Positions 3,445 to 33,824 of a stretch of 33,824 nucleotides of DNA are shown in pieces (within the stretch, counting starts at the first letter, position 1; the number at the start of each line of letters is the position of its first letter). Position numbers and translations under genes: made by a program. A model generated the notes under the pieces. That model was not told the origin of the DNA. It ran no database searches and worked only from the letters and a program-made list of their open reading frames with translations. This stretch comes from a virus. The stretch is taken from positions 1-33,824 of the IMG/VR virus record IMGVR_UViG_3300025083_000120; one strand, given 5' to 3'.

Positions 3445-6219
3445 GTGGCCTCTAGCTATCAGGCAAAAATTGATCTGATTGTCACAGGTCTGGAAAAGAT
3501 AAAGGCAGCAGAGACCAGGATAAAAAACCTTGTTTCAGAGTCAAAAAAATTAAAACGAGGTAGCACTGCCCAGAGAGGAACAGTTGCTTTAGCGACTGTA
3601 ACGCGTACTGAGCGTCAAGCTTCCCAAAAAAGTGTTCGTATTGCAGAGCAAAAGCTTACACTTCAATCTAAATTAAACGCCGCCACTGACCTTTACAACA
3701 GAAAGCTTAGGGAGTTTACGCGTGCAGGGGGCGAATCAAACAGTAAATTACAAGGTCGCGTTGACCAGATAAAGCAAGCATTTCAGGCTGGGACAAGAGG
3801 GGGACAAAAAAATATTCGCCTAGCTAGAGCATTAGCAACAGAACTAGGCCGCGTTGTTGAAAAACAACGTGAATCTAATCGTCTTCAGGTTATTAGAAAT
3901 AAAGGGTTTGAAGAAGGTAGACGTGGTTTTGAGCGAATTGAGGCACTTAAGGCTGGTGGCGTCTCTGATAGTCGTGGCCTTGGCCGTGCCGAAAGTCTTG
4001 TCAAAGGCATTGGAGTGGCAGCGCAGACAGGAGATCAAGCTGCTTATAACGAGGCCGTAAGAAAAGCCAAAGCGGTTTTAAACCGTTTGGAACGCGATTA
4101 TAAAAACGCTTCTACAGCCCAAAAAGCTTCAACTAAGGCTAAGCGTGATGTTGAAAGAGCAGAAAAGAGACTTGCCGCTGAGACAAAGAAGGCAGAAACA
4201 GCTTCTGCAGCACGTCGCCGTGCCCGCAAACAAAAATTCACTGATGTAGCCACTGGATTTGGCTTCCCACTGTTGTTTGGCGGCGGCCCGCTTCAAGCGG
4301 TAGCAGGCGGCCTTGGTGGAGCGGCAGGTGGTTTAGGCGGATCAATTGCTGCCAGCGCACTTACTGCACAGGTCGAAGCGTTCGCGACAGAAGCTGCAAC
4401 GGTTGGCCAAGCCTTGAACTCAACCGGTGGTGCGCTGGAATTAATGCGCGAAAAATCTTTGTTTAGCACCGATGCGGCAAGGGAGCGTGCTGCCGTCTTG
4501 GAAGAGCTGGGTCAAGTAGAGGAATTGGCGGCACATCTTGGCCAGGAAATGGCAAAGGCGATTGGCAATGAAGGCGTCAAAGCGTTGCAAGATTTAGGCG
4601 AAACAAGCAAGGAAACAACAAGACTTTGGAACTTACTGACTGTGCAGTTATTCAAGTTAATCTCTGGTCCACTTAATGCCTTCTTAAAAATTGTCAATCA
4701 GGCTCTTGGTGGCATTACGGTACAGCAACAGGTTGAGGCGCGGAAGGTAGATCTTGGAGCGGATGGCGCAGCTGCGCTGGACGCTCGAATCGCTGAGTTA
4801 GTGGCGGGTGACGATTCCGGTATAACCGAGAAAAGAAAACGTAGGGGGTTCAAAGGCGCTGGAGGGTTAAGTAAGACTGATGCACGGACGCAGGCTTTAG
4901 GTGAAGCTCAGTTTCAAGTTGCTGCTAAGCCGCTTCCGATCACAAAACAGGACCAAAGAGATTTTTCAGTCAGTGGCGGGGATAAAGCTGCCAAGGACAA
5001 GGCACGTTTAGATCAAAAACTGGCAGCACTTGAGCAAGAAAGACAGAAGATACTTGAGATCTCTGCCTTTAAGGACAAAATTGCTGCGGCCGAGGCTGCA
5101 AGCGATTCACAGCTTGTTATTCGTTTACAAGGTGAGCAACGAATTGCTCAGATTGAATCCAAGCGTCTAACAGATCTAACAAAGGTCAAAGATCAACGAT
5201 TGATTGACGCGATTAACATCAACGCAGCAACCGAAAAGCTTGCAGCGCAACGTCAGACTGAGCGTGACATTACTGAGGAGCAGCGCAAGCGTCAGGAGCT
5301 TTTTGACACAACGATCGAAGGGCTTGAGCATCAACTCAAGATGACAGAAGCAACCAGTCAGGCGGAGCGAGATCGCCTGAAGATTGCAAGAGAGATGAAA
5401 AAGCTTGAGGATAAAGGTCTTAAAGGCGATCAACTGACGCAAGCTCAAGGCCTCATGGAGCGTTTGGCTGTAGCGCAGCAGCCTCTGAATGCCTTTATTA
5501 CTAAAGCCACTGACGACCTAAATAATCTGCAGCAAGTTGCTGTTGATGTTTCTCAGGGAATTGGCAATGCAATTGGCGGTTCACTGGTCAACGGTTTGCA
5601 GGGGTTGGTTACTGGAGCGACATCAGTCAAGCAAGTGTTTGCCGACATGTTGAGGAGTGTGGCTGATGTATTAGCCAAAACCGCTTCACAAATGATCGCT
5701 CAATACATTGCGATCGGGATTGCAAAAGCGTTTGCTGGGATGGGCGGTGGGTTTAACAGCCCTGCCGCCAGCCCTGGGGGCTCTGCTGGTGTCGCAGGCA
5801 TTGGTGGAGGTGGCCTTGGTGACGTATTTGGCAATACCAGTTTGTTTGAATATGCAGAAGGTGGTTATGTCAACAAGCCAACCAACGCATTAATTGGTGA
5901 AGGTGGCGAGCCTGAGTACGTCATTCCTGAATCCAAAATGCGTGAAAGCATGTCTCGTTATTCACGCGGCTCGCGCGGAAACAGCGTCATTCCTACCAGT
6001 GGCGGTGGAGCGGAAGACAGCGGCGGTGGTACTGCAGTTGCCGCACCAATCGATGTTCGCTACACCGTGGAACGTATCAACAGTGTTGACTATGTAACCG
6101 CTGATCAGTTCCAATCTGGCATGAAGCAAGCCGCCAGCCAAGGTGCTAAACAGGGTGAACAGCAAACGTTAAAGAGGTTACAAATGAGCGGTGGTACGCG
6201 TAAGAGGCTAGGAATGTGA
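3445..6219 (+). CDS. Tail tape measure protein
   Basis: A 924-residue protein starting with GTG. Residues about 1-260 are highly charged and rich in Ala, Lys, Arg and Glu, as in long coiled coils. Two hydrophobic Gly/Ala-rich segments lie near 270-310 and 734-770, and a second coiled-coil region fills about 520-720. The C-terminal region carries EGGYVNKPTNALIGEGG then EYVIPESK (about residues 805-830), a hallmark seen near the C terminus of many siphovirus tape measure proteins. At roughly 1.5 angstrom per residue the tail would be near 140 nm (inference). It follows the gpG/gpGT pair and overlaps the next gene by four bases. Confidence 0.93.
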   Translation: MASSYQAKIDLIVTGLEKIKAAETRIKNLVSESKKLKRGSTAQRGTVALATVTRTERQASQKSVRIAEQKLTLQSKLNAATDLYNRKLREFTRAGGESNSKLQGRVDQIKQAFQAGTRGGQKNIRLARALATELGRVVEKQRESNRLQVIRNKGFEEGRRGFERIEALKAGGVSDSRGLGRAESLVKGIGVAAQTGDQAAYNEAVRKAKAVLNRLERDYKNASTAQKASTKAKRDVERAEKRLAAETKKAETASAARRRARKQKFTDVATGFGFPLLFGGGPLQAVAGGLGGAAGGLGGSIAASALTAQVEAFATEAATVGQALNSTGGALELMREKSLFSTDAARERAAVLEELGQVEELAAHLGQEMAKAIGNEGVKALQDLGETSKETTRLWNLLTVQLFKLISGPLNAFLKIVNQALGGITVQQQVEARKVDLGADGAAALDARIAELVAGDDSGITEKRKRRGFKGAGGLSKTDARTQALGEAQFQVAAKPLPITKQDQRDFSVSGGDKAAKDKARLDQKLAALEQERQKILEISAFKDKIAAAEAASDSQLVIRLQGEQRIAQIESKRLTDLTKVKDQRLIDAININAATEKLAAQRQTERDITEEQRKRQELFDTTIEGLEHQLKMTEATSQAERDRLKIAREMKKLEDKGLKGDQLTQAQGLMERLAVAQQPLNAFITKATDDLNNLQQVAVDVSQGIGNAIGGSLVNGLQGLVTGATSVKQVFADMLRSVADVLAKTASQMIAQYIAIGIAKAFAGMGGGFNSPAASPGGSAGVAGIGGGGLGDVFGNTSLFEYAEGGYVNKPTNALIGEGGEPEYVIPESKMRESMSRYSRGSRGNSVIPTSGGGAEDSGGGTAVAAPIDVRYTVERINSVDYVTADQFQSGMKQAASQGAKQGEQQTLKRLQMSGGTRKRLGM

Positions 6220-6722
6220 CGGCATTTGCTTTTGGTCATGCCTTACAAATTGTGATTGAAGGCGGTGCTGACTTCCGCTTTCAGAACTTTTTTATTGGAA
6301 AAAACATGACCCACACTGGCGCTGACAATGTAAATGCGAATTTTCAGTTTGTGCCATTTGGTTTTTCTGGCGTCACTGTTAACCGCACAGGCGACGGAAT
6401 GGACGCATCCCTCGTTTTTCCAAACAATGCTTTGACGAGAGAGTGGGGCAGAGACGCAATTATCAAAAGCTACCGAATGATGGTGCAGGTGTTAATTATT
6501 GAGAACTCTACCTCTGTTCAAGGTCAGACAGTGACCAGCCCGGGAGCTACTGTTGTTCACACTTACACAGGCGTCGTAACCGGTGGACAGTGGGACAACG
6601 TTTCGCTCAACATAGAACTTAGTTCTGTTTTAGATGCTGTTGGTACGGACGTGCCAAATCGATCCCTGACTCAAACACTTGTAGGCAACCTGCCAATTAG
6701 CAATGGTGTCCGACTGCGCTGA
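6216..6722 (+). CDS. Minor tail protein, possibly lambda gpL-like
   Basis: A 168-residue protein with a GTG start overlapping the tape measure stop (GTGA). The segment FQFVPFGFSGVTVNRTGDG, followed by strands ending in FPNN, resembles the N-terminal part of gpL-like minor tail proteins ('pf...g..v...G.g....l.i.N'). Unlike lambda gpL, it has no cysteines to hold an iron-sulfur cluster and it is shorter (lambda gpL is about 232 residues). It lies between the tape measure and the gpK-like protein, where gpL is expected. A distal-tail-like role is an alternative. Confidence 0.55.
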   Translation: MTAFAFGHALQIVIEGGADFRFQNFFIGKNMTHTGADNVNANFQFVPFGFSGVTVNRTGDGMDASLVFPNNALTREWGRDAIIKSYRMMVQVLIIENSTSVQGQTVTSPGATVVHTYTGVVTGGQWDNVSLNIELSSVLDAVGTDVPNRSLTQTLVGNLPISNGVRLR

Positions 6723-7074
6723 TCTCATTGGAATGCCGTATCGGCTAGGTGCTGACGGCAGTGATGGCCATATTGACTGTATCCACCTTTGCTACAAGGC
6801 TTTAGGGCATATCGGCATTGATCCGCCACCGTTTAAGCAGTCCTGGTACGAGGCAAGCAAATGGGAAGTATCGCGTGATTTGTTGAACTGGGGTTTTCGG
6901 GTCAAGAAGCCTGAGTATGATGGGGATATTCTGCTGTTACCGCAGCAATCCTGGGCATTCGCAGTCACATGGCAGACGGGAATTTTGTACGTCAATCGAA
7001 TATCAAAAAAGATTCAGTGGTCTTCGGTCCAACTGTTTCCAACGTACCACTGCTTCCGTACGAGAAAGAGTTAA
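6703..7074 (+). CDS. NlpC/P60-like tail tip protein (lambda gpK-like), active site possibly altered
   Basis: A 123-residue protein. LIGMPYRLGADGSDGHIDCI matches the NlpC/P60 consensus 'G.PY..Gg...g.DC..L', with the nucleophile at Cys26. The second block, GDILLLPQQ followed by QTGILYV, aligns with the usual 'GDlv..HvGIy' motif but has Gln91 where the catalytic His is expected. Either a different residue serves or the enzyme is inactive. In lambda gpK this domain is attached to a tail tip protein and is thought to cut peptidoglycan. The gene overlaps its upstream neighbour by 20 bases and the following gpJ-like ORF by 106 bases out of frame. Confidence 0.7.
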   Translation: MVSDCADLIGMPYRLGADGSDGHIDCIHLCYKALGHIGIDPPPFKQSWYEASKWEVSRDLLNWGFRVKKPEYDGDILLLPQQSWAFAVTWQTGILYVNRISKKIQWSSVQLFPTYHCFRTRKS

Positions 7075-10000
7075 TTAAGACGATTGGAATTACAGAAGAA
7101 GAGTATCAACTTTTTGCAGCTGAAGTAAGGCGGCGCGGTCGGTTAAGACCTGCAGAGTATGAGCATATTCCTCATGTAGTTAACGGCGACCCAGTAACCG
7201 CCACACTTGTAAGTATTGCGGTCAGTCTTATACTAACTGGCGTTTCATACCTGCTGACGCCAAAACCTAAAGCACCTGAAGCATCAAAACGATCACAGCT
7301 AGACCTTGGCAGCGTCAACGCTGCAAGCCGTTTTGTCCCAAGCCGTGGGTTTGACAGCTTAAATGAGCTTGCAGATTACGGTTCTCCCATACCGATCATT
7401 TTTGGTCGTTATGTCAAGGCTAAAAAAGTTGGCGGGATGTTGGTTACGCCAAAGCTTGTTTGGTCACGGATGTTTAGCCATGGAACGCAGCAATCAGCCA
7501 AGTTGATGTTTGTTGTTGGCGAACACGGTTTTGCCGATGGTGTTAGCCCTGATGGGATTATTGAGCCTGAGCTTGAAGGTATTTTTCTCGGCAACAACGC
7601 CTTAGACATTCTGTTCAGCGACTTTTTTGCGTTCTATTGGAAACGCAACTCACCAATGCTGACGGATGGGCTTACTGATTCAGCGTCAAGCTTTAACCGT
7701 TTGGAGCGGAGAAATCTTTTTTATGGATCGGCTGGCGACCCGAGCAAAGGAGATCCGTTCGAGTATGCGAGTGATGATGATGTATTTGAATGCCCAAGCG
7801 ATACCGGAGCTAGGTCTAAAAGTTTTTGTCATGCGTTTTCGCCTACTAATAATACTCAGTTTGGGGTGTACGGGGCTATTCCTAATGGCACTGGTTACAG
7901 GGTAAATTTTGAGCTTGTGCCAATCATTAAGGGAACTGAAGACAAACAAAAGCACGCATTAACGGTGCGTCAAATGAAAATTACTGGCGACAAAGATTCA
8001 AATTTTGACATAGGCAACGAAAATTTGTTAAAAAAAGTACGGCGGTTTTACATGGATGGCGAAGGCCGTCAGTACAGCCCACGCATGGGTTTAAGCGCAC
8101 TTATAAGAACAAACGGAACAGTGCTTGACGTGCCAGGTAATAACTTAACTGAAAGAGATCGAGTTGATGTTGGCGACATTGTTGAATTTGAAATCAAGAA
8201 AGGAGAAATTCCAGAAAACAAGTATCAGCGCAGCAATAACAGAGGCGGTGAAAACGTTGATGACATTAATGCTACGGTCGAGGCAGAGCAGCTTGCAGCC
8301 GATGAAGCAATGCAGGTTGGAGAGCAATTTGCTGTTGGCAACGTATTGTTTGTGGTTATAGGGCGCAGGCATCAACGGTTTGACCCTACGATCGATATGA
8401 CTCAAAAAATTAGCTTAAGGTGTATTGATACTGACGAGTCGCAAGATGCAAGGATTGGTTTTGTAAACGACCATGAAGTTATAGATCCTGAAAAAGATTT
8501 TATTGCTGATGGGAGTGGAGTTAAACCTATATTTTATCCCGTAACAAGAATTGCTACCGCTATCGTCAGAAACAACAAGCCCGCTGTTGTAACTGAGATA
8601 GGCATCCGAAGTAGAGTTTTTCAACGGCTAAATGGCATTTGCTCTTTTAACAATCTGCCCACTCCAGACCAGTTAGACAAGTTTCAGCAGAACGAAGTAT
8701 CAGTGCGCTCTGGAACGTACACAGGCTCAATCGTCAGGTCTTCTGTGTTTCAAGTTTACGTGCGCGAAGCTGGCGTAGATAGCAGCAACAATGCCTTTAG
8801 ATTTAGACGTATAGATTTATTTTTTGTTGTCAGGGGCAGCACGCCTGTTGATCAATACAACTTCATCAGGTTCAAGCATCCACAAGGAGAGCCTAAGGAG
8901 CTTGAATACAAGTTTGTATCAGTCGCGGCATCTGAGGTAGCGCAGTTGTCTGACGATGAAGAAATGATTCTTCTTTCCGCGTCAATTTCTGACGTAATAG
9001 AACCACTTGTTTTTGAAGATAAGAATATTTCAAGTCTTGGAAGATTTGAAATAGAAACGGCTGGCTCCAGGATCAGAAAGAAAGATATTGAAAAGAACAA
9101 AGAATTTTTACGCAACCCAAAAACCAAAATAGTTGGTGAAGAGACCACGGTGCCTTCAGCAGTACAACCCAATTCCGCGAGACCTGCGGATCAGGGTGGT
9201 GTATTTCGCCGTGCCATCTCAATGGTTGAGCACGCAAATGCAGGCAACCTAGAGCCGCCTGGTCGGATGGGTTCTTTTACCTTTGCAATTTTTGGCAATG
9301 CTGATAATTACCCAGGCGGTGAAGGAACACAAAGAACTTTAAACACTCGCGAAGACCTGCCTGGTAACAGATGGGTCAGGGTGCAATGGACGGTCGACAA
9401 GCGAGCATTGCTAGCTGATCAATACGCAAGAGCCAATAACGGTCAAATTTATGTTTGGCGAATACTTAGTGCACAAGTAATTGGTAGTTCTCCAGGGTTC
9501 AATAAGAACGATCTTATTCTCATTAGGCGTGGAGAGGGTTCAACAGAAGGCACAGAGCAGCCAGGCTATTCCAATTCTCCTTATCCAAGCAGCAATAATT
9601 TCAGAGACAATCATCCTTCTGGGCAAGCAATTCGGTGGTCCGGGTTTTACTACAGGATTACGGACATTAACACCACAAGCGTGCCTGAAGGGCGCATGGG
9701 TGGCTATTTCTATGACATCTTTGGCGATGCAGAAAATCTTGCACTTGGAACAAAAAGCAGCGCAATTAAAAGCATTCAAGAAGGAAGTAAAAGAATAAAA
9801 ATCAGACTTAATGTTGAGGTGATGAGTTTACCTGCGGGTCACTTTACTGGCCTGACAAAGAAGTGGAATTTTTCCGGCCCTGTTGAAGTTATTAATGACG
9901 GTTACACGACAAGCGACTGGGATAAGGACGAAACTTTCACGCACACTGAGACCATTTCTCCTGCCAATAACGCTTTTTACTGGACTTATAACCAAGTAGG

Positions 10001-11411
10001 TTTCCAATACAGGGTCGCTGATCTTGTGACTACCCCTGGTACGTCTGAATTAACAGGAGATACCGAATTTGAAAATCATAGTCAGTATGCAGATCTAAGT
10101 TTCTATAGAGGTTTGGTGCAAAAATCAAACGAATCAGAGCCTGAGCACAGCATTGTTTACGTCAACGAAGTTCTACCTAACAGCAAAGTTCCAGAATATA
10201 ACGGTTTAACAATTGCCGGTTTATCGCTCAAGGCTAGCCGTAACTTTACAAGCTTGGACCAGCTGCGTTGCTGGATCGGGCAAGGAATACCTGTGAAACG
10301 TTTGCATCCTGATACGACTGCTTCTGCAAACAACCCTTATGACGAACCGGGTGATTTGTATTACCAAGCGTCGGTTGGCCCAAGCCACTTATTCACCGAC
10401 CTTGTTTTTTATCTGCTGACTGACAGGCAAGGTGGAGCGGGCAACCTTATGGGCATGACCCCAGATAATGCGTTCTTGCTGAACGTAGATGATTTCAGAG
10501 AGGCCGCTAGGTTCATTCACCAGCAAGAATTGTTTTTTAATGGAGCGATTACAGAACGCACAAACCTTCGTCAATACATCACAGACACTGCGCCTTATTT
10601 CTTGTGCAACTTTGTGATGATGGATGGGAAATTTTCTCTGCTGCCAGCTCTTCCGTACAACAAAGCAAGCGGTCACATCAACACCGGGCCAGTACCAATT
10701 GATCAGCTGTTTACGTCAGGCAACATCTTGGAAGACAGCTACAAGCTCGAATATTTAAGAAGCGAAGAGCGCAGAAACTTTACAGCCACAGTTCGGTATC
10801 GGTTTGAGTCGCGCAATAAACTCCCAGAAGAAAGAGTTATGAAAGTAAAAATAAAAGGCAGCCCATCAGCAAACTTGCCGGAAGAAAATTTTGATCTGAC
10901 ACAGTTCTGCACTTCTAGGGGCCACGCTGTTAAGGTCGCGCAATACTTCTTAGGTCTTCGTAAGTTTGTCACTCATACAATTAGTTTTTCAACAACGATA
11001 GAAGGTTTAAATTTAAGAGCGGGTTCATACATCAAGGTCATTACTGAGTCTTCTCCGTACAGAAGCGCAAATAACGGTACGGTCAGTTCATCAGGGGCGG
11101 TGACAAGTGTCGAAAGCCTCTCTGATGGAATGTATAGCGTCACCTTTTTCCAAGTAGGTTCAGAAGACGTAGACGATGGACGGATGGAAATTAGCGGTGG
11201 GAGGGTGGCTGACACCAGATTCCACAATTCTGTGTTCACTGTCCAAGACGGCAACAAGAGCGAGAACGTTTATGTTGTTGAGCAGTTAACGTTTTCGCAG
11301 GAGGGCACAGTGGATATTGTGGCTTCTGAGCATAATTGCACTAGCGATGGAGCTAGTGAGCTTGCCAAATTCGTTGAAGACCCCAACTCTGTAGAAGTGG
11401 AGGATGTCTAA
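6969..11411 (+). CDS. Tail tip attachment / host specificity protein, gpI-gpJ-like fusion
   Basis: A 1480-residue protein. The N-terminal 100 residues carry a hydrophobic stretch at about 76-97 (VTATLVSIAVSLILTG) followed by LLTPKPK, as in lambda gpI. The sequence then runs into SRGFDSLNELADYGSPIPIIFGRY, the standard opening of the gpJ/central tail hub family. The rest is a long beta-rich hub with a fibronectin-like tail region. Two related segments, GRMGSFTFAIFGNADN (about 764) and GRMGGYFYDIFGDAEN (about 906), show an internal duplication of about 140 residues. The ATG at 6969 overlaps the gpK-like gene by 106 bases; an in-frame GTG at 7017 is an alternative start. A TAATG junction links it to the next gene. 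Confidence 0.85.
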   Translation: MADGNFVRQSNIKKDSVVFGPTVSNVPLLPYEKELIKTIGITEEEYQLFAAEVRRRGRLRPAEYEHIPHVVNGDPVTATLVSIAVSLILTGVSYLLTPKPKAPEASKRSQLDLGSVNAASRFVPSRGFDSLNELADYGSPIPIIFGRYVKAKKVGGMLVTPKLVWSRMFSHGTQQSAKLMFVVGEHGFADGVSPDGIIEPELEGIFLGNNALDILFSDFFAFYWKRNSPMLTDGLTDSASSFNRLERRNLFYGSAGDPSKGDPFEYASDDDVFECPSDTGARSKSFCHAFSPTNNTQFGVYGAIPNGTGYRVNFELVPIIKGTEDKQKHALTVRQMKITGDKDSNFDIGNENLLKKVRRFYMDGEGRQYSPRMGLSALIRTNGTVLDVPGNNLTERDRVDVGDIVEFEIKKGEIPENKYQRSNNRGGENVDDINATVEAEQLAADEAMQVGEQFAVGNVLFVVIGRRHQRFDPTIDMTQKISLRCIDTDESQDARIGFVNDHEVIDPEKDFIADGSGVKPIFYPVTRIATAIVRNNKPAVVTEIGIRSRVFQRLNGICSFNNLPTPDQLDKFQQNEVSVRSGTYTGSIVRSSVFQVYVREAGVDSSNNAFRFRRIDLFFVVRGSTPVDQYNFIRFKHPQGEPKELEYKFVSVAASEVAQLSDDEEMILLSASISDVIEPLVFEDKNISSLGRFEIETAGSRIRKKDIEKNKEFLRNPKTKIVGEETTVPSAVQPNSARPADQGGVFRRAISMVEHANAGNLEPPGRMGSFTFAIFGNADNYPGGEGTQRTLNTREDLPGNRWVRVQWTVDKRALLADQYARANNGQIYVWRILSAQVIGSSPGFNKNDLILIRRGEGSTEGTEQPGYSNSPYPSSNNFRDNHPSGQAIRWSGFYYRITDINTTSVPEGRMGGYFYDIFGDAENLALGTKSSAIKSIQEGSKRIKIRLNVEVMSLPAGHFTGLTKKWNFSGPVEVINDGYTTSDWDKDETFTHTETISPANNAFYWTYNQVGFQYRVADLVTTPGTSELTGDTEFENHSQYADLSFYRGLVQKSNESEPEHSIVYVNEVLPNSKVPEYNGLTIAGLSLKASRNFTSLDQLRCWIGQGIPVKRLHPDTTASANNPYDEPGDLYYQASVGPSHLFTDLVFYLLTDRQGGAGNLMGMTPDNAFLLNVDDFREAARFIHQQELFFNGAITERTNLRQYITDTAPYFLCNFVMMDGKFSLLPALPYNKASGHINTGPVPIDQLFTSGNILEDSYKLEYLRSEERRNFTATVRYRFESRNKLPEERVMKVKIKGSPSANLPEENFDLTQFCTSRGHAVKVAQYFLGLRKFVTHTISFSTTIEGLNLRAGSYIKVITESSPYRSANNGTVSSSGAVTSVESLSDGMYSVTFFQVGSEDVDDGRMEISGGRVADTRFHNSVFTVQDGNKSENVYVVEQLTFSQEGTVDIVASEHNCTSDGASELAKFVEDPNSVEVEDV

Positions 11412-11791
11412 TGGCTTTCCCTGATTTAGTCCCTACCGCTCGCACGTATGACGCTGGCGACTTCCCCGTCAAGGTCTTTAAGAGTCAAAACGGCGTTGAG
11501 CATAGGATTTTGTACGGCAGCAACCGCACCAACATGAAGCTGTCTCTGACTTACGCAAACATCCCGGACGCCAACGCCAAGCTGTTTTTAGACCATTACC
11601 AAGAAGAGCAGGGGACGTTTGGCACGTTTGACTTTATGCCTACTGGTTACGTAAAAGGTTGGGAGAGCAATACGAGTGAGCTTGATGCAAAGACTTTTGG
11701 GAATAAGTACAGGTACGAAGGCCCCCCGAAGGTCGTCCAGGTGCGTTCAGGGATTAGCACTGTTACAGTTAATCTGATTGGCGTGCTCTGA
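11411..11791 (+). CDS. Minor tail protein, lambda gpM-like (Phage_min_tail type)
   Basis: A 126-residue protein. The pattern VKVFKSQNGVEHRILYGSN followed by LSLTYANIP and a late GTFDFMPTGY strand resembles the gpM family (PF05939), a component of the tail tip complex. In lambda this gene lies between the tape measure and gpL; here it lies after the gpJ-like gene, so the module is rearranged. It is coupled to both neighbours by TAATG and TGATG overlaps. Family recognition is by eye, so this is a moderate call. Confidence 0.6.
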   Translation: MAFPDLVPTARTYDAGDFPVKVFKSQNGVEHRILYGSNRTNMKLSLTYANIPDANAKLFLDHYQEEQGTFGTFDFMPTGYVKGWESNTSELDAKTFGNKYRYEGPPKVVQVRSGISTVTVNLIGVL

Positions 11792-25696: not shown

Positions 25697-27495
25697 CAGT
25701 GAGTTTCCTCCCAAGTTTTACCAGTAGAAACCTCTGCTAACGCTGGTATGTCACCAAGCCAGTGAGCTTCGGCCTCCTCCATTACTTGTTTTAGGGTTTT
25801 TGCCCACTCTTCGGCTGCCTCCTCCCGAACTAGAAGCAAAATTTCATCATGCACAGCAGCAGCAATTTTTACCGTGTCTTCCCCCGCTTCTTTAACCAAA
25901 GGCCAGAGGTTGCCAAGAGCAAGTTTAAGGATGGCGGCACCAGCACCCTGAACCGGTGTATTACATCTAATAGTCAACCTATTCATGTCTGCTAATAACT
26001 CTCGTTTCATACCAGATACAGGTACGCGTATTTGACTTATGCAATTAGACTCTTCAGCTTCTTTAGACATATCTTTGTGCCAAGAAGCAATACCGTCAAA
26101 AGCTTTAAACCAATCAGATCTAATTTTTGTGGCCTCCTCTAAAGTCATGCTTACCCCCATACCTGCAGCGTAATTTCTAAGACCGCTTGGCCCAGAACCA
26201 TATAAAAGACCGAAGTTTGCTGACTTTGCTATTTGGCGCGTACACCCAATAGATTCAGCTGTAACACTATGCAGGTCTTGACCGTCTTTAAACGCTTGAC
26301 TCATCTTTTCATCTTTAGCTATAGCAGCAGCCAGCTTTAATTCCATTTGACTAAAGTCAGCATCCACCAAAAGCCAACCTTCAGGAGCCTCTACGCATCC
26401 ACGAAACTGCGGATCTTTAGGTATCTGTTGGTTATTGGGATTAAAACATGTCATCCTTCCCGTTTCTGCGCCCAACTGCATGTAACTAGCTCTAACAAAA
26501 CCGTCAGGCTGCATTTTTTCTTGTATTGAAGTAATCATTTGGCGTCTCTTTTCAGCTTTTTTCCAATCCAAATAAACTTGAATAACAGGGTGATGCCCCG
26601 CAAACTCACGCAGGGACTGCCTTGAAACACTATCAAGTTTGCACTTAAGTACAGCAGATAGCTTTTCCTTCAACTGTTTTGGGCTATTTAAGTTAAAACC
26701 TTTGTATTTTTTAGTCCCAGCTCGCACGCTGCCTTCGTCCCTGGGACGTAAATTAAATGTGTCATCCTCATCCCTGGGTAGCTTATCTGATTTTGGAAGA
26801 GCTGCATCCAGCATCCGAACAAAATCCTTTGCATATTCCTGTATATCATGCTCGTAATCTATTTTCTTACCATTAAGTCTTTTCCCGTTCCAAGGCAACC
26901 CTGTTCTTTGCATTTGCGCCATAGCAGGTAAAGCTAAACACTCTAGTCTGTAAGCACCAGCAAGACTAAATTCGGCTAATTCTTGTTTTAGTATACTATC
27001 TAATTCGCACAAGACTTCTACATCTTTAGCTGCATAGTTAATTTGCTCATCGGTTAAATTCCCAGACCAATCCGATCTTTGCTGCTCCTTATCTAAATCA
27101 ATGCTCAGATATTTTTTAACAACACTTTTGAGGCTGTGTTTTCTATTGGGGAGTCCGTTGGACAGAAGACGGCTGGCCAGCATGGAGCAACCGAGGTTTG
27201 CCGGATTTGGGTGGATGTCGTACTGCTGAAGCCACCCAATATCAAACACAGCGTTATGGGCAAGCCAGAAACGGTCTCCGTTGCTGAAGAAGCGGCCCAA
27301 CACGTCCCAGTCGCTTTCATTTAATTCAAAACAATCGATGACAACAATAATCTTTCTGACCTGACAGCCCAGCTGTATTAAACGGAGCTTCCCTTGTTCA
27401 GGTTGAAGCTGGAGCGTTTCCACGTCAAAGCAAATGGACACAGCCGTGTCGATTTCGTTCAGATGCTCTATCCCTCTGAGAACGTCGTAACTCAT
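25696..27495 (-). CDS. Family A DNA polymerase with 3'-5' exonuclease domain
   Basis: A 599-residue protein. The DEDDy proofreading domain shows D24-x-E26 (CFDVETLQ), D85 (AHNAVFDIGW) and Y154-xxx-D158 (YAAKDVEVL). The polymerase domain shows motif A (VDADFSQMELK, about 375-390), motif B (RQIAKSANFGLLYG, about 419-432) and motif C (VHDEIL, about 546-551). The residue equivalent to E. coli Pol I 762 is Phe. There is no 5'-3' exonuclease domain, as usual in phages. The start is set at ATG 27495, which overlaps the preceding stop (ATGA) after GAGG; a longer in-frame start lies inside that gene. It copies the phage genome together with the Prim-Pol/helicase. Confidence 0.95.
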   Translation of the reverse strand: MSYDVLRGIEHLNEIDTAVSICFDVETLQLQPEQGKLRLIQLGCQVRKIIVVIDCFELNESDWDVLGRFFSNGDRFWLAHNAVFDIGWLQQYDIHPNPANLGCSMLASRLLSNGLPNRKHSLKSVVKKYLSIDLDKEQQRSDWSGNLTDEQINYAAKDVEVLCELDSILKQELAEFSLAGAYRLECLALPAMAQMQRTGLPWNGKRLNGKKIDYEHDIQEYAKDFVRMLDAALPKSDKLPRDEDDTFNLRPRDEGSVRAGTKKYKGFNLNSPKQLKEKLSAVLKCKLDSVSRQSLREFAGHHPVIQVYLDWKKAEKRRQMITSIQEKMQPDGFVRASYMQLGAETGRMTCFNPNNQQIPKDPQFRGCVEAPEGWLLVDADFSQMELKLAAAIAKDEKMSQAFKDGQDLHSVTAESIGCTRQIAKSANFGLLYGSGPSGLRNYAAGMGVSMTLEEATKIRSDWFKAFDGIASWHKDMSKEAEESNCISQIRVPVSGMKRELLADMNRLTIRCNTPVQGAGAAILKLALGNLWPLVKEAGEDTVKIAAAVHDEILLLVREEAAEEWAKTLKQVMEEAEAHWLGDIPALAEVSTGKTWEETH

Positions 27496-27746
27496 TTGCT
27501 TGCCTCGGGATAAGCCAAGCCCAGATCGAGCCAATCCCATTCGTGAATCATTTGGTCCGTTTCGGGGCATGGGGCGTACCAGCCACCTTCATCCAACTCC
27601 CATCCGGCTGCAACACGGATGTCATAAACACGGCTTTCTTCGGCCATAGCGGCCTCAACCTTGTCTAAGTGGTCGAACCAAGTAGGACAGGTTTCCATCA
27701 TTCGGAGATTTTCTTGTGCCCTGTAGAGGGCTGCTGAGTCAGACAT
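27492..27746 (-). CDS. Small hypothetical protein before the polymerase
   Basis: An 84-residue acidic protein (SDSAALYRAQENLRMMET; then DEGGWYAPCPETDQMIHEWD). ATG 27746 is preferred over an in-frame GTG at 27779. It contains a Trp/Tyr-rich central region and ends by overlapping the polymerase start, so the two are co-translated. No family was recognised; it may be a polymerase partner, inferred from coupling only. Confidence 0.6.
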   Translation of the reverse strand: MSDSAALYRAQENLRMMETCPTWFDHLDKVEAAMAEESRVYDIRVAAGWELDEGGWYAPCPETDQMIHEWDWLDLGLAYPEASK

Positions 27747-27780
27747 GTGTGGTGTCAAGCAACTCTGGCAGTGTAGCACA

Positions 27781-28128
27781 CTACTCTGTAAGTATGTGTT
27801 CCAAGAATGGAAAATGATCTATATCGTAAAAACTCATAACAGCCACATCAATACCAAAGTTCAAAGCAGCTGTAACTTGGCATTGAAATTCTGTGTGACC
27901 ATCTGCGTCATCCTGGTACGTTACTTGTTCCACAGCTAAGACTCTGTTTTCAGGGTCATAGCTTGTATAACGCGCAAGAGCTAACCTTTCGTATGTAATG
28001 CAGTCTGCTGTCATTAGCGTTTTGCAGTAGGTAAACTGAACATTGTCTCTCACGCTGGGGTACCGCCTGATAGAACCATGACGTTGTTTAAAACACCAGC
28101 GTGCAACACAGTTAAGAAGCCAATTCAT
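27781..28128 (-). CDS. Hypothetical protein, 115 residues
   Basis: ATG 28128 lies inside the end of the preceding RHH gene and is preferred over a TTG at 28146. The N terminus is hydrophobic and basic (MNWLLNCVARWCFKQRHGSI), and the rest is mixed (ERLALARYTSYDPENRVLAV, then FYDIDHFPFLEHIL). It could be associated with the membrane. No domain was recognised. A short 34-base gap separates it from the next gene, longer than most junctions in this operon. Confidence 0.55.
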   Translation of the reverse strand: MNWLLNCVARWCFKQRHGSIRRYPSVRDNVQFTYCKTLMTADCITYERLALARYTSYDPENRVLAVEQVTYQDDADGHTEFQCQVTAALNFGIDVAVMSFYDIDHFPFLEHILTE

Positions 28129-28366
28129 TAAAAACAATGGCAACAACGTTTTCTAGTTGTCTCCTGTCCATGCCATTACCCGTTCTACGCCTTACCAGGC
28201 TTACCAAAGTGTGGAAGTCTTTAGGGCCATAGTCCCCAACATCTTTAGCTTCTCTGGGAACAAGTCTGTCTCGTATAAACTGGGCTCTTGATATATGTTT
28301 AGACCCGGCTTCTTTGTCTACCTGAGCTAAAACTTCTTCGGGAATGCGGACTGTAATTTCTTTCAT
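28112..28366 (-). CDS. Ribbon-helix-helix (CopG-type) DNA-binding protein
   Basis: An 84-residue protein. MKEITVRIPEEVLAQVDKEA, then SKHISRAQFIRDRLV, is the standard RHH fold: a strand with alternating residues, helix 1, and helix 2 starting with 'SRAqFiRd'. The remaining 40 residues (VSLVRRRTGNGMDRRQLENV) form a second helical part that may set oligomerisation. RHH proteins bind inverted or direct repeats as dimers. A candidate target is the TGACA-N5-TGTCA repeat between the divergent replication promoters (inference). TAATG overlap with the preceding gene. Confidence 0.75.
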   Translation of the reverse strand: MKEITVRIPEEVLAQVDKEAGSKHISRAQFIRDRLVPREAKDVGDYGPKDFHTLVSLVRRRTGNGMDRRQLENVVAIVFNELAS

Positions 28367-28584
28367 TAAAGGTACTCGTTGTAAAAGGCACTGCCGGGTC
28401 CGTATTTAGACACGATCTCTGGAAACGCGTCCAGAACCCTGGAGCGATTACGAGGATCAGCTAGCAGTGCCGCTTCAGACAGCTTACTGATGAATGCACC
28501 ACCGTAATTGTGTGCGGTCTTGATGGTGGCATTGGTTTGTTTTTCTGTCACAGCTCGATAAATAACAGTGGTACCGTAGCACAT
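28366..28584 (-). CDS. Small hypothetical protein, 72 residues
   Basis: ATG 28584 overlaps the preceding stop (TAATG); the longer in-frame version is inside the neighbouring gene. It reads MCYGTTVIYRAVTEKQTNAT, then GGAFISKLSEAALLADPRNR and GPGSAFYNEYL. The protein looks compact and soluble with no obvious catalytic motif. It is co-translated with the RHH gene that follows. Not recognised. Confidence 0.55.
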   Translation of the reverse strand: MCYGTTVIYRAVTEKQTNATIKTAHNYGGAFISKLSEAALLADPRNRSRVLDAFPEIVSKYGPGSAFYNEYL

Positions 28585-28850
28585 TATAGTTTTCCTCGCA
28601 ACCGCAGGCTTTCCCAAAAAACGTCCCAGGCTAATTCTGGGTGACTTACAAAAATTTCGTACTCGACTTTGGGGTTTTCGGTAAGCCGACAAGCAAGTGG
28701 TGGATCTCCTAAAGACTCGTTTAAAAGACTCCACCATTCTTTTATGGATGTTCTCCGAGCAACGCTGTCTTGCTTGCCCGGAAACGCGTCCCAGTTCATC
28801 TGTTCCCCTTGAAGGTGGTAATTCTTCGGGCGTTCAGCCTTTCGTTTCAT
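28584..28850 (-). CDS. Hypothetical protein, 88 residues
   Basis: ATG 28850 overlaps the Prim-Pol/helicase stop (ATGA). The N terminus is basic (MKRKAERPKNYHLQGEQMNW), and the middle is Trp-rich (TSIKEWWSLLNESLGDPP; then HPELAWDVFWESLRLRGKL). The spacing suggests a helical protein. Its position right after the helicase suggests a role in replication, but no family was recognised. Confidence 0.55.
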   Translation of the reverse strand: MKRKAERPKNYHLQGEQMNWDAFPGKQDSVARRTSIKEWWSLLNESLGDPPLACRLTENPKVEYEIFVSHPELAWDVFWESLRLRGKL

Positions 28851-31282
28851 CTGCCCCATATTTTGTTGGCGTTAAGCATGAGCTGGTGAAGATCCTCTGG
28901 AGATCGCCTCGCGGGGGGATATTGATCTGAGTGTCCCACTGAGGCAGATCCGTTCGTATCACTAGGTTTAGCAGTGGGACACTTTACTGTTTTCGTGGGG
29001 GCTGTCCCACTGGTCTTTGATGAGTGGGACACCTTCTCCGTTTTTTGCGGTTGTCCCACTGCTTGTCCCACTGCAGAATCCGCTCCAGTACTGGGTTTAG
29101 GTGTAAGTGGGACACTTTTCTTACCCTCTCCGCGCACGCGCGTGTGTGGGGGTTGTTCAATAACCGCTTTGTAAAGCCGTGGAACGTCCCCACCTTTGCC
29201 TTTAATCAACACCCCTTCTGAAGTTTCGATCAGCCCACGCTTAACCCAACGCTGGAGCGACTTCCGTATAGCCGCAACATTGCCGCCAACAATCGGATCC
29301 GAGTCCAGCTCTGTTCTGCTGATGGATCGTGGGTAGATGGAGCGCACCCGAGCCAAGACCCGATCACTGATCCCGCTCGGTGAAGTGTTGGTGCTGTCAA
29401 TTTCAGCGGTGAAGTCTGAGATGGAGAAAGTCAGGTCAGATTCCTGCTTCATGATCAGAGCTGTTCCGCTACGTCCGCTGCGGCTCTTCTCAACGCTGAT
29501 GATCCGGCTGTGGGGCGTAGTGGCGTCGTTGCTCTCTAACTGCTTGTCAGTCGGTTCAGACAGCCTCCAGGTCTCTGTAACGGCGTCTCTAATAGCGGTA
29601 GTACCCCTAAAACCGCCCTGCTTGTTTGCGTGGTGGATGATCAGAATCGTGGTCGCTGGAAATAAAACCCCGTTGTTCCGTGTCAGCCAATAAAGCGGCG
29701 TAGCAAAATCCGACTTGTTTTCATCAAAAGCACGTCCGCCAGAACAACCAATCAAGGAGTCAACGATGACCATCTTTGGTTTGCGCTCTGTCATCAGAGC
29801 CTGGAACTGGGCGTAATACTGCAAGTTCCAGTTGTTATGGATCATCACGTCAGACGTGCGAGGAAACTCAACCTCATCAAGCTGGCTATCCAAATCATCC
29901 AAAGGCTGGTCGCCATTCAAGATCAAGCAACCACCTTTTTGCACTGGAACGTGTTTACCCCGAACGACAAAAGGTGTTCCATTTACAACGTGCTTGGCCA
30001 GCGTCCATGCAGCAGTTGATTTTCCTTTACCGCCTTCGGCATATATAAGAACCACAGCAGGCTTAGCAAGAACATCAGGGATTAAAAATTCACGTCCAGT
30101 TATTTTTCCTTTTAATTTATCCAATGTAAAAGATCCTTCGTCTTGTTCAAATCCTATATGGTCAGCATAAACCTGCTCAAGTTTTGCCTGATCCCTGTAC
30201 TTACACTCTTGGGCAATTCTATTAGCTTCAAAGTTACGTTTACCAGGGTTAGATATCTTCATAGCTTCACCCATCTGCTTCATCGCTTCTTCAAATGAAA
30301 GCGTTGCATCTCTGAAACTTATTGGCGTCTGATCGATTTCAGCCACCACCGATGCAAGATTGTCCCTTTGAAATCGGGCACGCTTTGGGTCGTAGTGGTC
30401 TGCATAACTTATAAGACTGCCAAAACTCAGTCCACCATTGGATTTAAACCCAGCTTCCCAACGCTTAAGGCATGGGTCGTCATTCTCCCAATCCTCTCTA
30501 TATTCTTCATCCTGTAAAGACCATTCCCGCCAAATATTTAAACCATCCTCATTAGGTAACTCTGAATGAAGCATGGCTCCAATACGCCACCAAGTATCTT
30601 CAGATCCCCGTCCCTCGGGCTGAATTACGGATAAACAAGACTTTGCAATAGCAATAAGCTCTTCCCTGGAACGTGACGCATACCTAAAATCCTTTATAGT
30701 TCTACCTTCAATTTTTTCGTTATATTCTCTAAAAGACTCCTGCATTTCTGCTAAAAGCCACCCAGGAATCTCTGGAATAGCATTAATGTCACCTTTAAAA
30801 ACATATTCCCCACCTTTTGGGTACGCACCGCTAATTACACCCTGCTTGCCCCATAAAACTTCCCAACCAGCATTGGTCTGAGAAAGCACTAAACCCCTAA
30901 CTTCATGCCAGTTTTTCTCTGGAATACGAAACAGGTATTTGGCAGCATTTTTCTTAGGTGAAATAACAACTGGAACATCCTTAAAAGTCGTGCCCCACTT
31001 CTTTTTCAGTATCGAAAGGTTGGCGTCAACATCAAGAATTACGAGCCCATCACTACATGGCCCTGTGTAGACACCGATCGCTTTGAAGACATCAGGCTGT
31101 TGTTCGATATATCGGGCAGCCGCATACGGGCGAACAATCCTGTGTGGTTCGGTGCCAGCCTTGTTAAGCGGAGACTTGCCACAAGCTGGGTGGCCTGTTT
31201 TCGGCAGTGGAACGCCTTTTGCGTAGATAGGCCCAGTAGCCCAATTTTCAGGCAAAGAGCGGACAAATTTGACGAGATCCAT
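28847..31282 (-). CDS. Bifunctional primase-polymerase / RepA-like helicase
   Basis: An 811-residue protein. Residues about 1-185 form an archaeo-eukaryotic Prim-Pol domain, with catalytic D84-x-D86 (LVILDVDANL) and a late GVISGAYPKGGEYVF element. Residues about 205-290 resemble PriCT-2 (WWRIGAMLHSELPNEDGLNI). A RecA-fold helicase of the AAA_25/RepA type follows, with Walker A AEGGKGKST (about 413-421), Walker B MVIVDSL (about 502-508) and the IIHHANKQGGFRGTTAIRD motif. A winged helix lies near 630-700. The last 95 residues are low-complexity, and their DNA carries an iteron-like repeat cluster. It would prime and unwind phage DNA. It is the first gene of the operon. Confidence 0.9.
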   Translation of the reverse strand: MDLVKFVRSLPENWATGPIYAKGVPLPKTGHPACGKSPLNKAGTEPHRIVRPYAAARYIEQQPDVFKAIGVYTGPCSDGLVILDVDANLSILKKKWGTTFKDVPVVISPKKNAAKYLFRIPEKNWHEVRGLVLSQTNAGWEVLWGKQGVISGAYPKGGEYVFKGDINAIPEIPGWLLAEMQESFREYNEKIEGRTIKDFRYASRSREELIAIAKSCLSVIQPEGRGSEDTWWRIGAMLHSELPNEDGLNIWREWSLQDEEYREDWENDDPCLKRWEAGFKSNGGLSFGSLISYADHYDPKRARFQRDNLASVVAEIDQTPISFRDATLSFEEAMKQMGEAMKISNPGKRNFEANRIAQECKYRDQAKLEQVYADHIGFEQDEGSFTLDKLKGKITGREFLIPDVLAKPAVVLIYAEGGKGKSTAAWTLAKHVVNGTPFVVRGKHVPVQKGGCLILNGDQPLDDLDSQLDEVEFPRTSDVMIHNNWNLQYYAQFQALMTERKPKMVIVDSLIGCSGGRAFDENKSDFATPLYWLTRNNGVLFPATTILIIHHANKQGGFRGTTAIRDAVTETWRLSEPTDKQLESNDATTPHSRIISVEKSRSGRSGTALIMKQESDLTFSISDFTAEIDSTNTSPSGISDRVLARVRSIYPRSISRTELDSDPIVGGNVAAIRKSLQRWVKRGLIETSEGVLIKGKGGDVPRLYKAVIEQPPHTRVRGEGKKSVPLTPKPSTGADSAVGQAVGQPQKTEKVSHSSKTSGTAPTKTVKCPTAKPSDTNGSASVGHSDQYPPARRSPEDLHQLMLNANKIWGR
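28924..29148. repeat. Iteron-like repeat cluster, candidate replication origin
   Basis: Seven copies of GTCCCACT or its reverse complement lie at 28933, 28973(rc), 29004, 29023(rc), 29053, 29065 and 29106(rc), all inside the coding region for the disordered tail of the Prim-Pol/helicase. The octamer is read in three different reading frames of the protein, so it is kept at DNA level. The first copy is enclosed by the inverted arms GATCTG (28924-28929) and CAGATC (28945-28950). An 18-base alternating pyrimidine-purine run (29131-29148), with palindrome CACGCGCGTG, borders the other end. The layout recalls lambda ori inside gene O. Confidence 0.65.
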
Positions 31283-31430: not shown

Positions 31431-32021
31431 ATGCCATTTCTTTCCAAAAAAGCCTCATCTGCGGTAGCAGGCAGCGGCGACCGTCCTTATCTGAATCCTT
31501 CTAAAGTTCCTTCTGGCGAGACTGTTCGCTTTGCTTTGCTCAGCGACCAACCAATCGAGTTTTACGAGTGCTGGGGCGTATCTACAGACGGCAACGACAA
31601 AAAGAAGCCGTTCCGTTTCGTACAGGATCCCACTTCAGAAGAAATTGAAGCTGAAATGGGTGACAATTTTGAGCGTCGTGCGAGCTTCGATGGTGAAAGT
31701 GCCGAGCCCAGCAAATTTGCTGTTGCTGCTCCGGTTTACAACTACACGACTGCAAGAGTCGAAATAATCCAAATCACTCAAAAGAGCATTCTTCGTGAGT
31801 TGGACGGCATCTCCCAAATGGAGGATTACTCCAATCTGCTGGAGCACGACTTTGTTTTGGGCAAAGAGGGTTCAGGCAAAGCAAGTGAGTACAGCTTGCG
31901 TCCTGTCCCACAAAAGAAAGGCAGTGAAAAGGCAACCAAAGCTGCCTGGGACGACGCCTTAGAAGCTGGCTTCGACATTGATCGAATGCTGGATGACGGC
32001 AACCCATTCAGTGCTGAGTAA
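31431..32021 (+). CDS. Single-stranded DNA-binding protein (phage SSB-like)
   Basis: A 196-residue protein. The middle (about 35-165) fits an OB-fold of phage SSBs: FALLSDQPIEFYECWGVST, then FAVAAPVYNYTTARVEIIQI and FVLGKEGSGKASEYSLRPVP. The C terminus is acidic and ends DDGNPFSAE, like the protein-interaction tails of SSBs. It stands alone between its own promoter and a strong terminator, which fits a protein needed in large amounts early, and it is divergent from the replication operon. The family is named by pattern; a general recombination/replication accessory role is an alternative. Confidence 0.7.
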   Translation: MPFLSKKASSAVAGSGDRPYLNPSKVPSGETVRFALLSDQPIEFYECWGVSTDGNDKKKPFRFVQDPTSEEIEAEMGDNFERRASFDGESAEPSKFAVAAPVYNYTTARVEIIQITQKSILRELDGISQMEDYSNLLEHDFVLGKEGSGKASEYSLRPVPQKKGSEKATKAAWDDALEAGFDIDRMLDDGNPFSAE

Positions 32022-32090: not shown

Positions 32091-32282
32091 ATGCCTGATC
32101 GTCACTACGAAAAACCTTTACCAGAGACGATCACCACAATCTTGGAAGACGGCAGAGTTTCAATCTCAGTAGGAAATATCACTGGAATTGTTAGTTCGAT
32201 GCACTTGATAGAACCCAAAGCTCATCAGCTACAAAAGGCTTGGCTCAAGAATCAGATGGATTTGGTAGATGCAAGCAACTGA
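32091..32282 (+). CDS. Small hypothetical protein, 63 residues
   Basis: The ATG at 32091 follows the terminator; a longer in-frame ATG at 32028 would run through the terminator hairpin and is rejected. The protein (PDRHYEKPLPETITTILEDG, then VGNITGIVSSMHLIEPKAHQ) looks like a small alpha/beta domain. It overlaps the nuclease gene by 14 bases, so the two may work together or only be co-expressed. Not recognised. Confidence 0.55.
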   Translation: MPDRHYEKPLPETITTILEDGRVSISVGNITGIVSSMHLIEPKAHQLQKAWLKNQMDLVDASN

Positions 32283-33072
32283 TTCTCAAAACGCATTAGC
32301 TGGTTTACGCCGCTGGACCCTGGAACGTGACGACTCTGGTCCACACCGTGTGTATCGCGATGAGTCCGGCGTGTCTTACGCCTCAGTGACACACATTCTC
32401 AAAGAAACCTCACCCCAATGGCAAAAAGATGCACTCGACCGCTGGCTGGAACGCCCAACTGCTCCCATGGAGCGTGACATTGCTTGCCAGCGCGGCACTT
32501 TGGCGCACAATCACGCGGAATATGTCCTCAAGACGGCAGCAAAGCTGGCGCGACAGTCTGCAAACAAGCGAGGTAGCTGGAGGGCTGGAGATGACGGCCT
32601 GGAACGTGCCCCCAAAGGAATCACTAGCTGGGCAATCGAAAAAGCCATTCAGGGGGCTCCTAGGGTCTCCTGGAGCGCCTCTGGGTACGCCCGAGGTCTA
32701 CGGTCTTGGATCGGAGAGAACGTAACGGCCATTCATGCCATCGAATTTTCCATTCATGACCCACGAGGCTGGGCTGGAACGGCTGACGCTTTAATCGACC
32801 TAGATGGCAAGCTCTGCATCGCTGATTGGAAGACCAGCGTTAACGCCCGTAGTGAAGAAATGTTGTCAAACTATATATGCCAGACTGGAGCGTATTCCCT
32901 GGGATTGCAGCACCTGACTGGGTTAAAGCCCAAGTGTGGAGCGGTTGTAGTAGCCCGACGCAGTGGAGCACCTCAAGTTCGGTTGCTCAGTGAGTTAGAA
33001 TTACGTGGGGCAGAGTGTCAATGGTTAGAGAGAATGAACCTTTATACGGCCCAGCAAGCCCTAAAGAACTAA
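32269..33072 (+). CDS. PD-(D/E)XK exonuclease (RecB/Cas4-like, phage type)
   Basis: A 267-residue protein. The nuclease core is readable: motif I RGTLAHNHAEY (H80), motif II GTADALIDLDG (D173), motif III CIADWKTS (D186, K188), and motif IV QTGAYSLGL (Q205, Y209). These proteins digest DNA ends and in phages act in recombination, replication or host DNA breakdown. It follows the SSB-like gene, a common pairing for recombination modules, though no annealing protein was recognised here. Its DNA contains six copies of CTGGARCG, in all three reading frames. Confidence 0.85.
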   Translation: MQATDSQNALAGLRRWTLERDDSGPHRVYRDESGVSYASVTHILKETSPQWQKDALDRWLERPTAPMERDIACQRGTLAHNHAEYVLKTAAKLARQSANKRGSWRAGDDGLERAPKGITSWAIEKAIQGAPRVSWSASGYARGLRSWIGENVTAIHAIEFSIHDPRGWAGTADALIDLDGKLCIADWKTSVNARSEEMLSNYICQTGAYSLGLQHLTGLKPKCGAVVVARRSGAPQVRLLSELELRGAECQWLERMNLYTAQQALKN

Positions 33073-33254
33073 GTAAGGCACTGGAATGTCTCTATACGGG
33101 ACAGATGAATGTGGCTATACAAGCCAGGGCATTAAGGATGACTCTGGAACGTCTAAAGCAACTGTTCAACGCCTACGTGGCAGAACGCCCCATCGATATA
33201 AACGATGAGGATATATATGCCGCTGATCTACAAATGACTTGGCCTTTTGCTTAG
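33021..33254 (+). CDS. Small acidic hypothetical protein
   Basis: A 77-residue protein from ATG 33021 (an in-frame GTG at 33015 is possible), overlapping the nuclease stop by 52 bases. The sequence is helical at first (SPKELSKALECLYTGQMNVA, then RMTLERLKQLFNAYVAE), ending with an acidic section (DINDEDIYAADLQ). It resembles small helix-turn-helix-like phage proteins but no DNA-binding motif can be claimed. It meets the convergent gene with a 4-base overlap. Confidence 0.5.
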   Translation: MVRENEPLYGPASPKELSKALECLYTGQMNVAIQARALRMTLERLKQLFNAYVAERPIDINDEDIYAADLQMTWPFA

Positions 33255-33457
33255 GACTGGAACGGTATGAAGAATTGGCTCGGCTTGCCGTTCATGGTCA
33301 CGCCATCTTTCCAAGTCAACCCAATGCAATGGTCATTGAGCAGGCACTTGATCAGAAACTCATCAGTCTTTGGAGCGTAGATAACAACGTAGGCATTGGA
33401 TGCCCAGTGGACCGTTTTGCCAGCCATCACGGCTGTTTTGATCTCAGTTAAGTTCAT
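33251..33457 (-). CDS. Small hypothetical protein, 68 residues
   Basis: ATG 33457 overlaps the preceding stop (ATGA); longer in-frame versions extend into that gene. The protein reads MNLTEIKTAVMAGKTVHWAS, then AYVVIYAPKTDEFLIKCLLN and LTWKDGVTMNG. This pattern of a short helix and strands recurs in small phage proteins of unknown function. It runs with the two other reverse-strand genes at the right edge. Confidence 0.6.
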   Translation of the reverse strand: MNLTEIKTAVMAGKTVHWASNAYVVIYAPKTDEFLIKCLLNDHCIGLTWKDGVTMNGKPSQFFIPFQS

Positions 33458-33624
33458 TTTTCTGAATACAGATAGGTGTTTAGTTTTTGATGCAATGCTT
33501 GAAGCATTTTGTACTTGACACAATCAGACTGTCTAATATTTTCAAAGAAACCCATTTCCATGAATACGGAATCATGGAGCGTTTCTAACTCTCTGAACGT
33601 GAACTCGATGCTGGTGTTTTTCAT
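33454..33624 (-). CDS. Small hypothetical protein, 56 residues
   Basis: The ATG at 33624 lies 25 bases after the preceding stop and is preferred; an in-frame GTG at 33699 would overlap the upstream gene by 50 bases. The protein is charged and helical (EFTFRELETLHDSVFMEMGF, then DCVKYKMLQALHQKLNTYLY). It is coupled to the next gene by ATGA. Not recognised. Confidence 0.5.
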   Translation of the reverse strand: MKNTSIEFTFRELETLHDSVFMEMGFFENIRQSDCVKYKMLQALHQKLNTYLYSEK

Positions 33625-33649
33625 GTTGGAACGTAAGTGAGACAAAATC

Positions 33650-33824
33650 TCAGACTGTTTGAGACAACCCACCCATTCGGGCGAGTCTTTCGTATTCACG
33701 CACTAAACGTGCATAGTCTTGAACGTTGCCACCTTTAAAGGCAGTGATTAACAGTTGGCGCGTCATTCTCATCAACGCGTCCCTGTCTTCGTAGCTAATC
33801 CCTGGAACGGAATCCGCATCGATT
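33650..33824 (-). CDS. Partial gene running off the right edge
   Basis: An open - strand frame enters from base 33824 and ends at TGA 33652-33650, showing about 57 C-terminal residues. They are helical (YEDRDALMRMTRQLLITAFK, then YARLVREYERLARMGGL). A C-terminal helix pair of this kind would suit a small terminase subunit or another DNA-binding phage protein, but this is a guess from composition. The start lies outside the window. Confidence 0.5.
   Translation of the reverse strand, partial: IDADSVPGISYEDRDALMRMTRQLLITAFKGGNVQDYARLVREYERLARMGGLSQTV

Follow-up and report, generated by a model that had tools for sequence, protein, structure and literature searches.

The 33,824-nt stretch of virus DNA analysed here (the window; positions 1 to 33,824 of IMG/VR record IMGVR_UViG_3300025083_000120) carries many copies, predominantly in one orientation, of the short word TGGARCG (core TGGNNCG, frequently with a C before it), which on balance we take to be a Chi-like site controlling an end-entering nuclease, host RecBCD being its likeliest reader. 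The word is over-represented and polar; its density follows a gradient, its orientation is locked to that of the terminase gene, its spelling varies between phage lineages, and it co-occurs with an exonuclease module. With 99.99% identity, the window forms part of a 42,377-bp contig that carries a 120-bp terminal repeat. The phage's complete genome (G001) comprises about 42.26 kb of unique, circularly closing sequence, of which about 8.4 kb, holding the terminase, portal and capsid genes, lies outside the window.

A first-pass annotation, made from the letters of the window, had reported the octamer CTGGARCG from a hand count. Exact matching returned 28 copies on the + strand and four on the - strand, reproducing every listed coordinate; in 100 dinucleotide shuffles the total over both strands averaged 1.78 and reached at most 5. 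The octamer understates the feature, whose wider unit is the seven-base core TGGARCG, present 54 times on + and 12 times on - in the window (TGGAGCG 26 and 3, with a second-order Markov expectation of 2.3; TGGAACG 28 and 9, with an expectation of 3.2) and 62 and 15 times in the complete genome. Pooling 26 exonuclease-bearing loci (487 kb) gave 355 copies of TGGAACG against 44 expected and 325 of TGGAGCG against 41, z-scores over such related genomes representing non-independent events. In these pooled loci, changing T1, G2, G3, C6 or G7 brought counts near background, positions 4 and 5 were graded (AR 8-fold enriched, other pairs about 2-4-fold), and C was favoured directly 5' of the leading T. 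The functional word is best written as TGGNNCG, with (C)TGGARCG as its optimum; TGGARCG overall shows an approximately 10-fold excess and a polarity of 4-5:1. The Markov-corrected count that the annotation had proposed as a check thus upheld both excess and skew, and the skew also held in the rest of the genome and in relatives, all of which are uncultured contigs and several of which are near copies of each other or of the window phage.

These counts might in principle arise from the encoded proteins, from codon usage or from base composition, and inside the exonuclease gene the word does often encode L-E-R, G-T or G-A. We find this reading scarcely credible, as it is refuted by a shuffle of synonymous codons that preserves both proteins and codon usage: among 7744 7-mers, TGGAGCG and TGGAACG take the first two places (35 observed against 6.2 expected and 38 against 8.2, both strands), and therefore reflect neither protein nor codon bias. 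In the complete genome, 46 sense and 27 antisense sites were observed where synonymous shuffles gave 9.9 and 3.7; many sites are thus antisense, and the word is kept across genomes of 34% to 57% GC. The earlier observation that orientation ignores gene direction is borne out by the primase-helicase gene (28847-31282, - strand), within which six + oriented sites persist against 0.47 expected. The signal resides on the DNA strand rather than in mRNA.

Along the window, + sites start in the tail-gene region (2174-16227) at 2174, 3342, 4088, 4317, 4755, 5456, 5613, 6006, 6068, 7481, 7702, 8711, 10433, 10541, 13468, 13523, 13957, 14353, 15040, 15265, 15624, 15733 and 16221. Among the late, lysis and replication genes (19536-31214), where many fall within - strand genes, they start at 19536, 20856, 20895, 21974, 22007, 22659, 23807, 24235, 24647, 27410, 28440, 29180, 29253, 29338, 29945, 30667 and 31208. 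The densest cluster (32321-33809, +) has starts at 32321, 32447, 32468, 32600, 32671, 32775, 32886, 32937, 33145, 33258, 33371, 33575, 33627 and 33803, contains no - strand site, and recurs in 29 relatives aligned on the start of the exonuclease gene. Sites of the minority orientation (196-29087, -) lie at 196, 2679, 12221, 12714, 19022, 21012, 22554, 23812, 23981, 25574, 26886 and 29081, and none was found between 29.1 and 33.8 kb of the window. The exonuclease gene itself (EXO; 32269-33072, +) encodes a 267-amino-acid PD-(D/E)XK protein which, in sequence and predicted fold, resembles MGME1 best and then the nuclease domains of AdnAB, RecE and AddAB; eight + sites lie inside it against 1.8 expected by synonymous shuffle.

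About 90 other contigs carry the word in the orientation, relative to the terminase gene, that it has here. This orientation is constant in 28 exonuclease-bearing loci, with 464 + and 52 - sites upstream of terminase (41 expected) and 148 and 50 downstream (28 expected). In relatives anchored at the exonuclease start, + density rises there from about 1/kb to about 7/kb, then fades over 3 kb toward terminase while - density is about zero; the median site spacing in clusters is 168 bp. The replication genes lie on one side of this peak and terminase on the other; right of terminase, the head genes carry the word at near-background density. In five complete genomes, + sites become sparser the farther left of terL they lie (Spearman -0.76, p=0.0015), a trend that - sites do not share. 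Around five complete or circularly closing genomes no polarity switch point was found. The exonuclease gene of 26 relatives holds one to eight sites each at 17 different positions, and it seems to be density rather than individual site position that is conserved. A periodicity of about 10.4 bp in the spacing of sites, suggestive of helical phasing, was dropped because relatives share sites and are not independent.

The letters of the word change between lineages. Among 124 loci of at least 7 kb, the main word was TGGARCG in 91, CTGGAGC in 14, TGGATCG in eight and a TAAGC word in two, with none strong in nine. The variant words are themselves polar (64:4 in the TGGATCG clade, 261:58 in the CTGGAGC clade), and both clades retain the peak at the exonuclease gene with almost no opposite sites to its right; such constancy of place and direction under changing letters is hard to explain by composition. 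Word class also tracks the primase tree, requiring nine changes against a shuffled mean of 29. The TAAGC words (GCTAAGC/CCTAAGC, top in L325 and L333) are less polar, only 61:35 when pooled with two relatives, and may be a different feature. A second polar word, CCATTCA (156:26 pooled), was rejected as an artefact: it encodes conserved A-I-H-A and S-I-H-D in the exonuclease gene, on which the loci were centred.

A strong motif was present in 73 of 77 exonuclease-bearing loci and in neither of two loci that have the primase, polymerase and single-stranded DNA-binding protein (SSB)-like gene and lack the exonuclease, counts that are conditional on the loci having been retrieved by similarity to the primase and exonuclease proteins. 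The two exonuclease-less loci (L309 and L310; 12:10 and 12:8, no polar motif) are near-identical and represent one event. Together with L312, they are high-GC relatives which have kept the polymerase, primase-helicase and SSB-like gene and lost both exonuclease and polar motif. In two further contigs (L078 and L086), which are truncated upstream, the motif occurs and no exonuclease gene is visible.

How a Chi-like site might act here is suggested by lambda. After packaging of that phage has started, its right end alone is free, and RecBCD acts on a Chi that it reaches from the 3' side (PMC2082072). If packaging here proceeds in the direction of terL, as we infer by analogy with lambda, these two facts would predict the orientation that we observe. 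The phage would make concatemers, of which terminase would cut one; the left end would go into the capsid, leaving the rest of the DNA with an open right end. An end-entering recombination nuclease, for which host RecBCD is the likeliest candidate and the phage exonuclease module the alternative, could then load at this open end and travel leftward, and on meeting 5'-(C)TGGARCG-3' from the 3' side would cease destroying DNA, begin recombination, or both. Packaging direction, free right end, identity of the reader and effect on the nuclease are all deductions of this kind. Selection would retain many sites pointing the same way, with the highest density in the 3-6 kb, lying between replication genes and terminase, that the nuclease reaches first from the packaging cut. 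Since a nuclease moving left from a free right end would meet the 3' side of TGGARCG first, this scheme would explain why the polarity never switches and is tied to terminase, why it disregards gene strand, and why density is graded.

Among the functions that the first-pass annotation had proposed, a Chi-like recombination or end-protection site is the best supported, its orientation being tied to terminase, while FtsK-orienting polar sequences (KOPS), restriction-modification and an uptake or packaging signal fit poorly. Like Chi, TGGARCG is a short, asymmetric word with a TGG core, over-represented beyond composition and codons. In lambdoid phages, Chi is concentrated between the replication origin or genes and the packaging site (PMC3784561), and the peak described above occupies the equivalent place, with terminase position standing in for pac/cos, in an orientation that would suit a nuclease entering a free right end if packaging runs with terL. 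The RecBCD Chi sequences of E. coli (GCTGGTGG) and P. syringae (GCTGGCGC) have GCTGG in common, whereas the AddAB-type sites given in the same source lack it (PMC5959072). The differences are that the letters here are TGGARCG and its variants, with a spelling that shifts between phage clades and a putative effect on the nuclease, and that density is about 1.3-7 per kb, whereas in E. coli and the phages of E. coli Chi occurs at about 0.2 per kb.

Several results weigh against this interpretation. The motif tracks a phage gene, the exonuclease. Sites on the - strand are also about 3-fold enriched outside the dense cluster, and the simple model above leaves this modest excess unexplained. Enrichment in the host chromosome, usual for a host Chi if not strictly defining, was absent from the picocyanobacteria sampled: TGGAACG was not enriched (z -2.7 to 0.9), and showed no clear replication polarity, in 290-400 kb from each of RCC307, Cyanobium CH-040, G112 and G188, and CTGGAACGT was notable in none of 299 picocyanobacterial genomes screened. 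Nor was comparable TGGARCG enrichment seen in the named cyanophages checked (S-CBS1/2/3/4, S-LBS1, S-CBP2, P-SSP7, PSS2, S-EIVl, S-CRES1, S-N03, P-HM1, S-SRP02 and S-2L) or in Pelagibacter, Roseobacter, Vibrio and Methylophilales phages. As the sampled genomes are candidate hosts only, absent enrichment does not settle the question of a host Chi. Candidate hosts do appear to possess RecBCD, since 9 of the 13 picocyanobacterial genomes tested have RecC homologues (model matches below the curated cut-off). In the literature searched, no Chi-like sequence was described from cyanobacteria or cyanophages. In Synechococcus and Cyanobium genomes (L218-L252, L424-L463), codon-controlled enrichment includes GGTGAGC and the E. 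coli octamer GCTGGTGG, at ranks 10-96 of about 24,000-29,000 8-mers; these are candidates for the host's own Chi. Separately, the Pelagibacter phage HTVC111P (L107) and the Roseobacter phage CRP-406 (L108) carry a polar CAGGTGC/GCACCTG (12:0 and 9:0, about 1 expected), which may be a Chi-like word among phages of alphaproteobacteria.

The main rival is a reader encoded by the phage, in view of the motif's association with the exonuclease module and its lack of enrichment in the picocyanobacteria sampled. This rival shares the logic of end control with the host-read Chi-like site and differs in the reader. Acting by itself or together with another protein, the MGME1/RecB-like exonuclease would pause or switch at the site, giving the phage its own Chi-like code that drifts with its lineage; we hold this to be possible, at appreciably lower probability than reading by host RecBCD. 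The same tentative standing applies to the more general statement that the polar word, present along the whole genome, is read by a nuclease module that the virus itself encodes, reader and word (TGGARCG, TGGATCG, CTGGAGC) drifting together independently of host Chi. The clustering of word classes on the primase tree is in keeping with such a code. That phage exonucleases can respond to sequence is indicated by lambda exonuclease, which pauses strand-specifically at GGCGA (PMC7496540); the likeness lies in the strand-specific response of a phage PD-(D/E)XK exonuclease, but the source describes no genome-wide polar array, and the enzyme here is MGME1-like, not lambda-exo-like. The contrast with exonuclease-less loci amounts, moreover, to a single event, recognition of seven bases by a 267-amino-acid exonuclease without a helicase would be unusual, and the TGG core agrees with RecBCD Chi.

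The remaining candidates fare considerably worse. A role in priming or unwinding by the phage primase-helicase, with the word marking lagging-strand starts on a genome replicated in one direction, would suit a single polarity round the circle, and the primase-helicase belongs to the module. Known primase recognition sites, however, span 3-5 bases, clusters spaced at 168 bp are far denser than Okazaki starts require, and the motif does not occur wherever the primase-helicase does (L309 and L310, one independent case), so that we think this improbable. It is more doubtful still that the word records one-sided escape from a type III-like enzyme or marks the targets of a methylase, whether phage- or host-encoded, even though an asymmetric 7-mer with strong strand bias recalls the EcoP15I sites of phage T7. 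Those sites are strand-biased without excess, whereas TGGARCG is about 10-fold in excess on + and about 3-fold on -; avoidance accounts for skew and not for such an excess, the over-representation on both strands contradicts any avoidance of restriction, 12 - sites would leave the phage cleavable, and none of the window proteins examined was recognisable as a methylase. A packaging signal repeated along the genome and read directly by terminase has an equally slender chance. Orientation is indeed locked to terminase, but four related loci whose terminases are 83-85% identical (L063, L079, L087, L098) lack the exonuclease/replication module and the motif, which argues against terminase as reader, and the motif survives beside an unrelated terminase (L315, 23% identity). 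KOPS, and the SpoIIIE recognition sequences (SRS) akin to them, are likewise polar short words along a genome; the annotation had named a switch point at the origin or ends as support, and KOPS are rejected for lack of arm polarity with an origin-terminus switch, the setting here being a phage genome in which no FtsK-like gene was recognised.

Terminases 82-100% identical also recur (L025-L104) in phages ranging from 33% to 55% GC, some of which have the replication module and some not, which points to strong exchange of the packaging genes as modules. On the reverse complement of G001, two proteins sharing an R-A-T-A-[YF]-R-D motif lie either side of the gap before terL; that at 12837-13253 (+) occupies the small-terminase position, and that at 10195-10563 (-) may be an antisense-strand paralogue. 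Within the window, the conserved module further includes the primase-helicase (PriCT-2 + AAA) and a small SSB-like protein (31431-32021, +), which matches phage single-stranded DNA-binding proteins weakly and gave no confident match in a fold search. A Family A DNA polymerase is encoded at 25696-27570 (-); no homologue of it was detected in three complete motif-bearing genomes. The window also holds a non-polar 9-base word, TGTCCCACT / AGTGGGACA, five times on one strand and four on the other (about 0.1 expected), for example near position 200 (TGTTGTCCCACTGCG).

The window phage is a siphophage with cyanophage-like genes. Among named-phage relatives, those of the endolysin (105 of 105) and nearly all those of the exonuclease (207 of 211) are cyanophages, and those of the tail protein (5 of 5) and primase-helicase (3 of 3) are Synechococcus phages. 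A cyanobacterial host is therefore likely, and the term cyanophage used in the first-pass annotation is backed by these relatives, though no isolate exists. Primase homologues across 399 picocyanobacterial genomes were limited to partial AAA-domain matches, mostly in longer proteins, and no host was assigned.

If the word is read by host RecBCD, it offers a candidate Chi for ecologically important cyanobacteria, derived from phage DNA. If instead a phage enzyme reads it, this would be a virus-encoded Chi-like system, of which we know no earlier example. The word also supplies an alignment-free marker of this viral group in metagenomes. The family forms a natural series, one site of constant position and polarity whose sequence varies by clade, and the co-evolution of a recombination nuclease with its recognition word is therefore directly testable.

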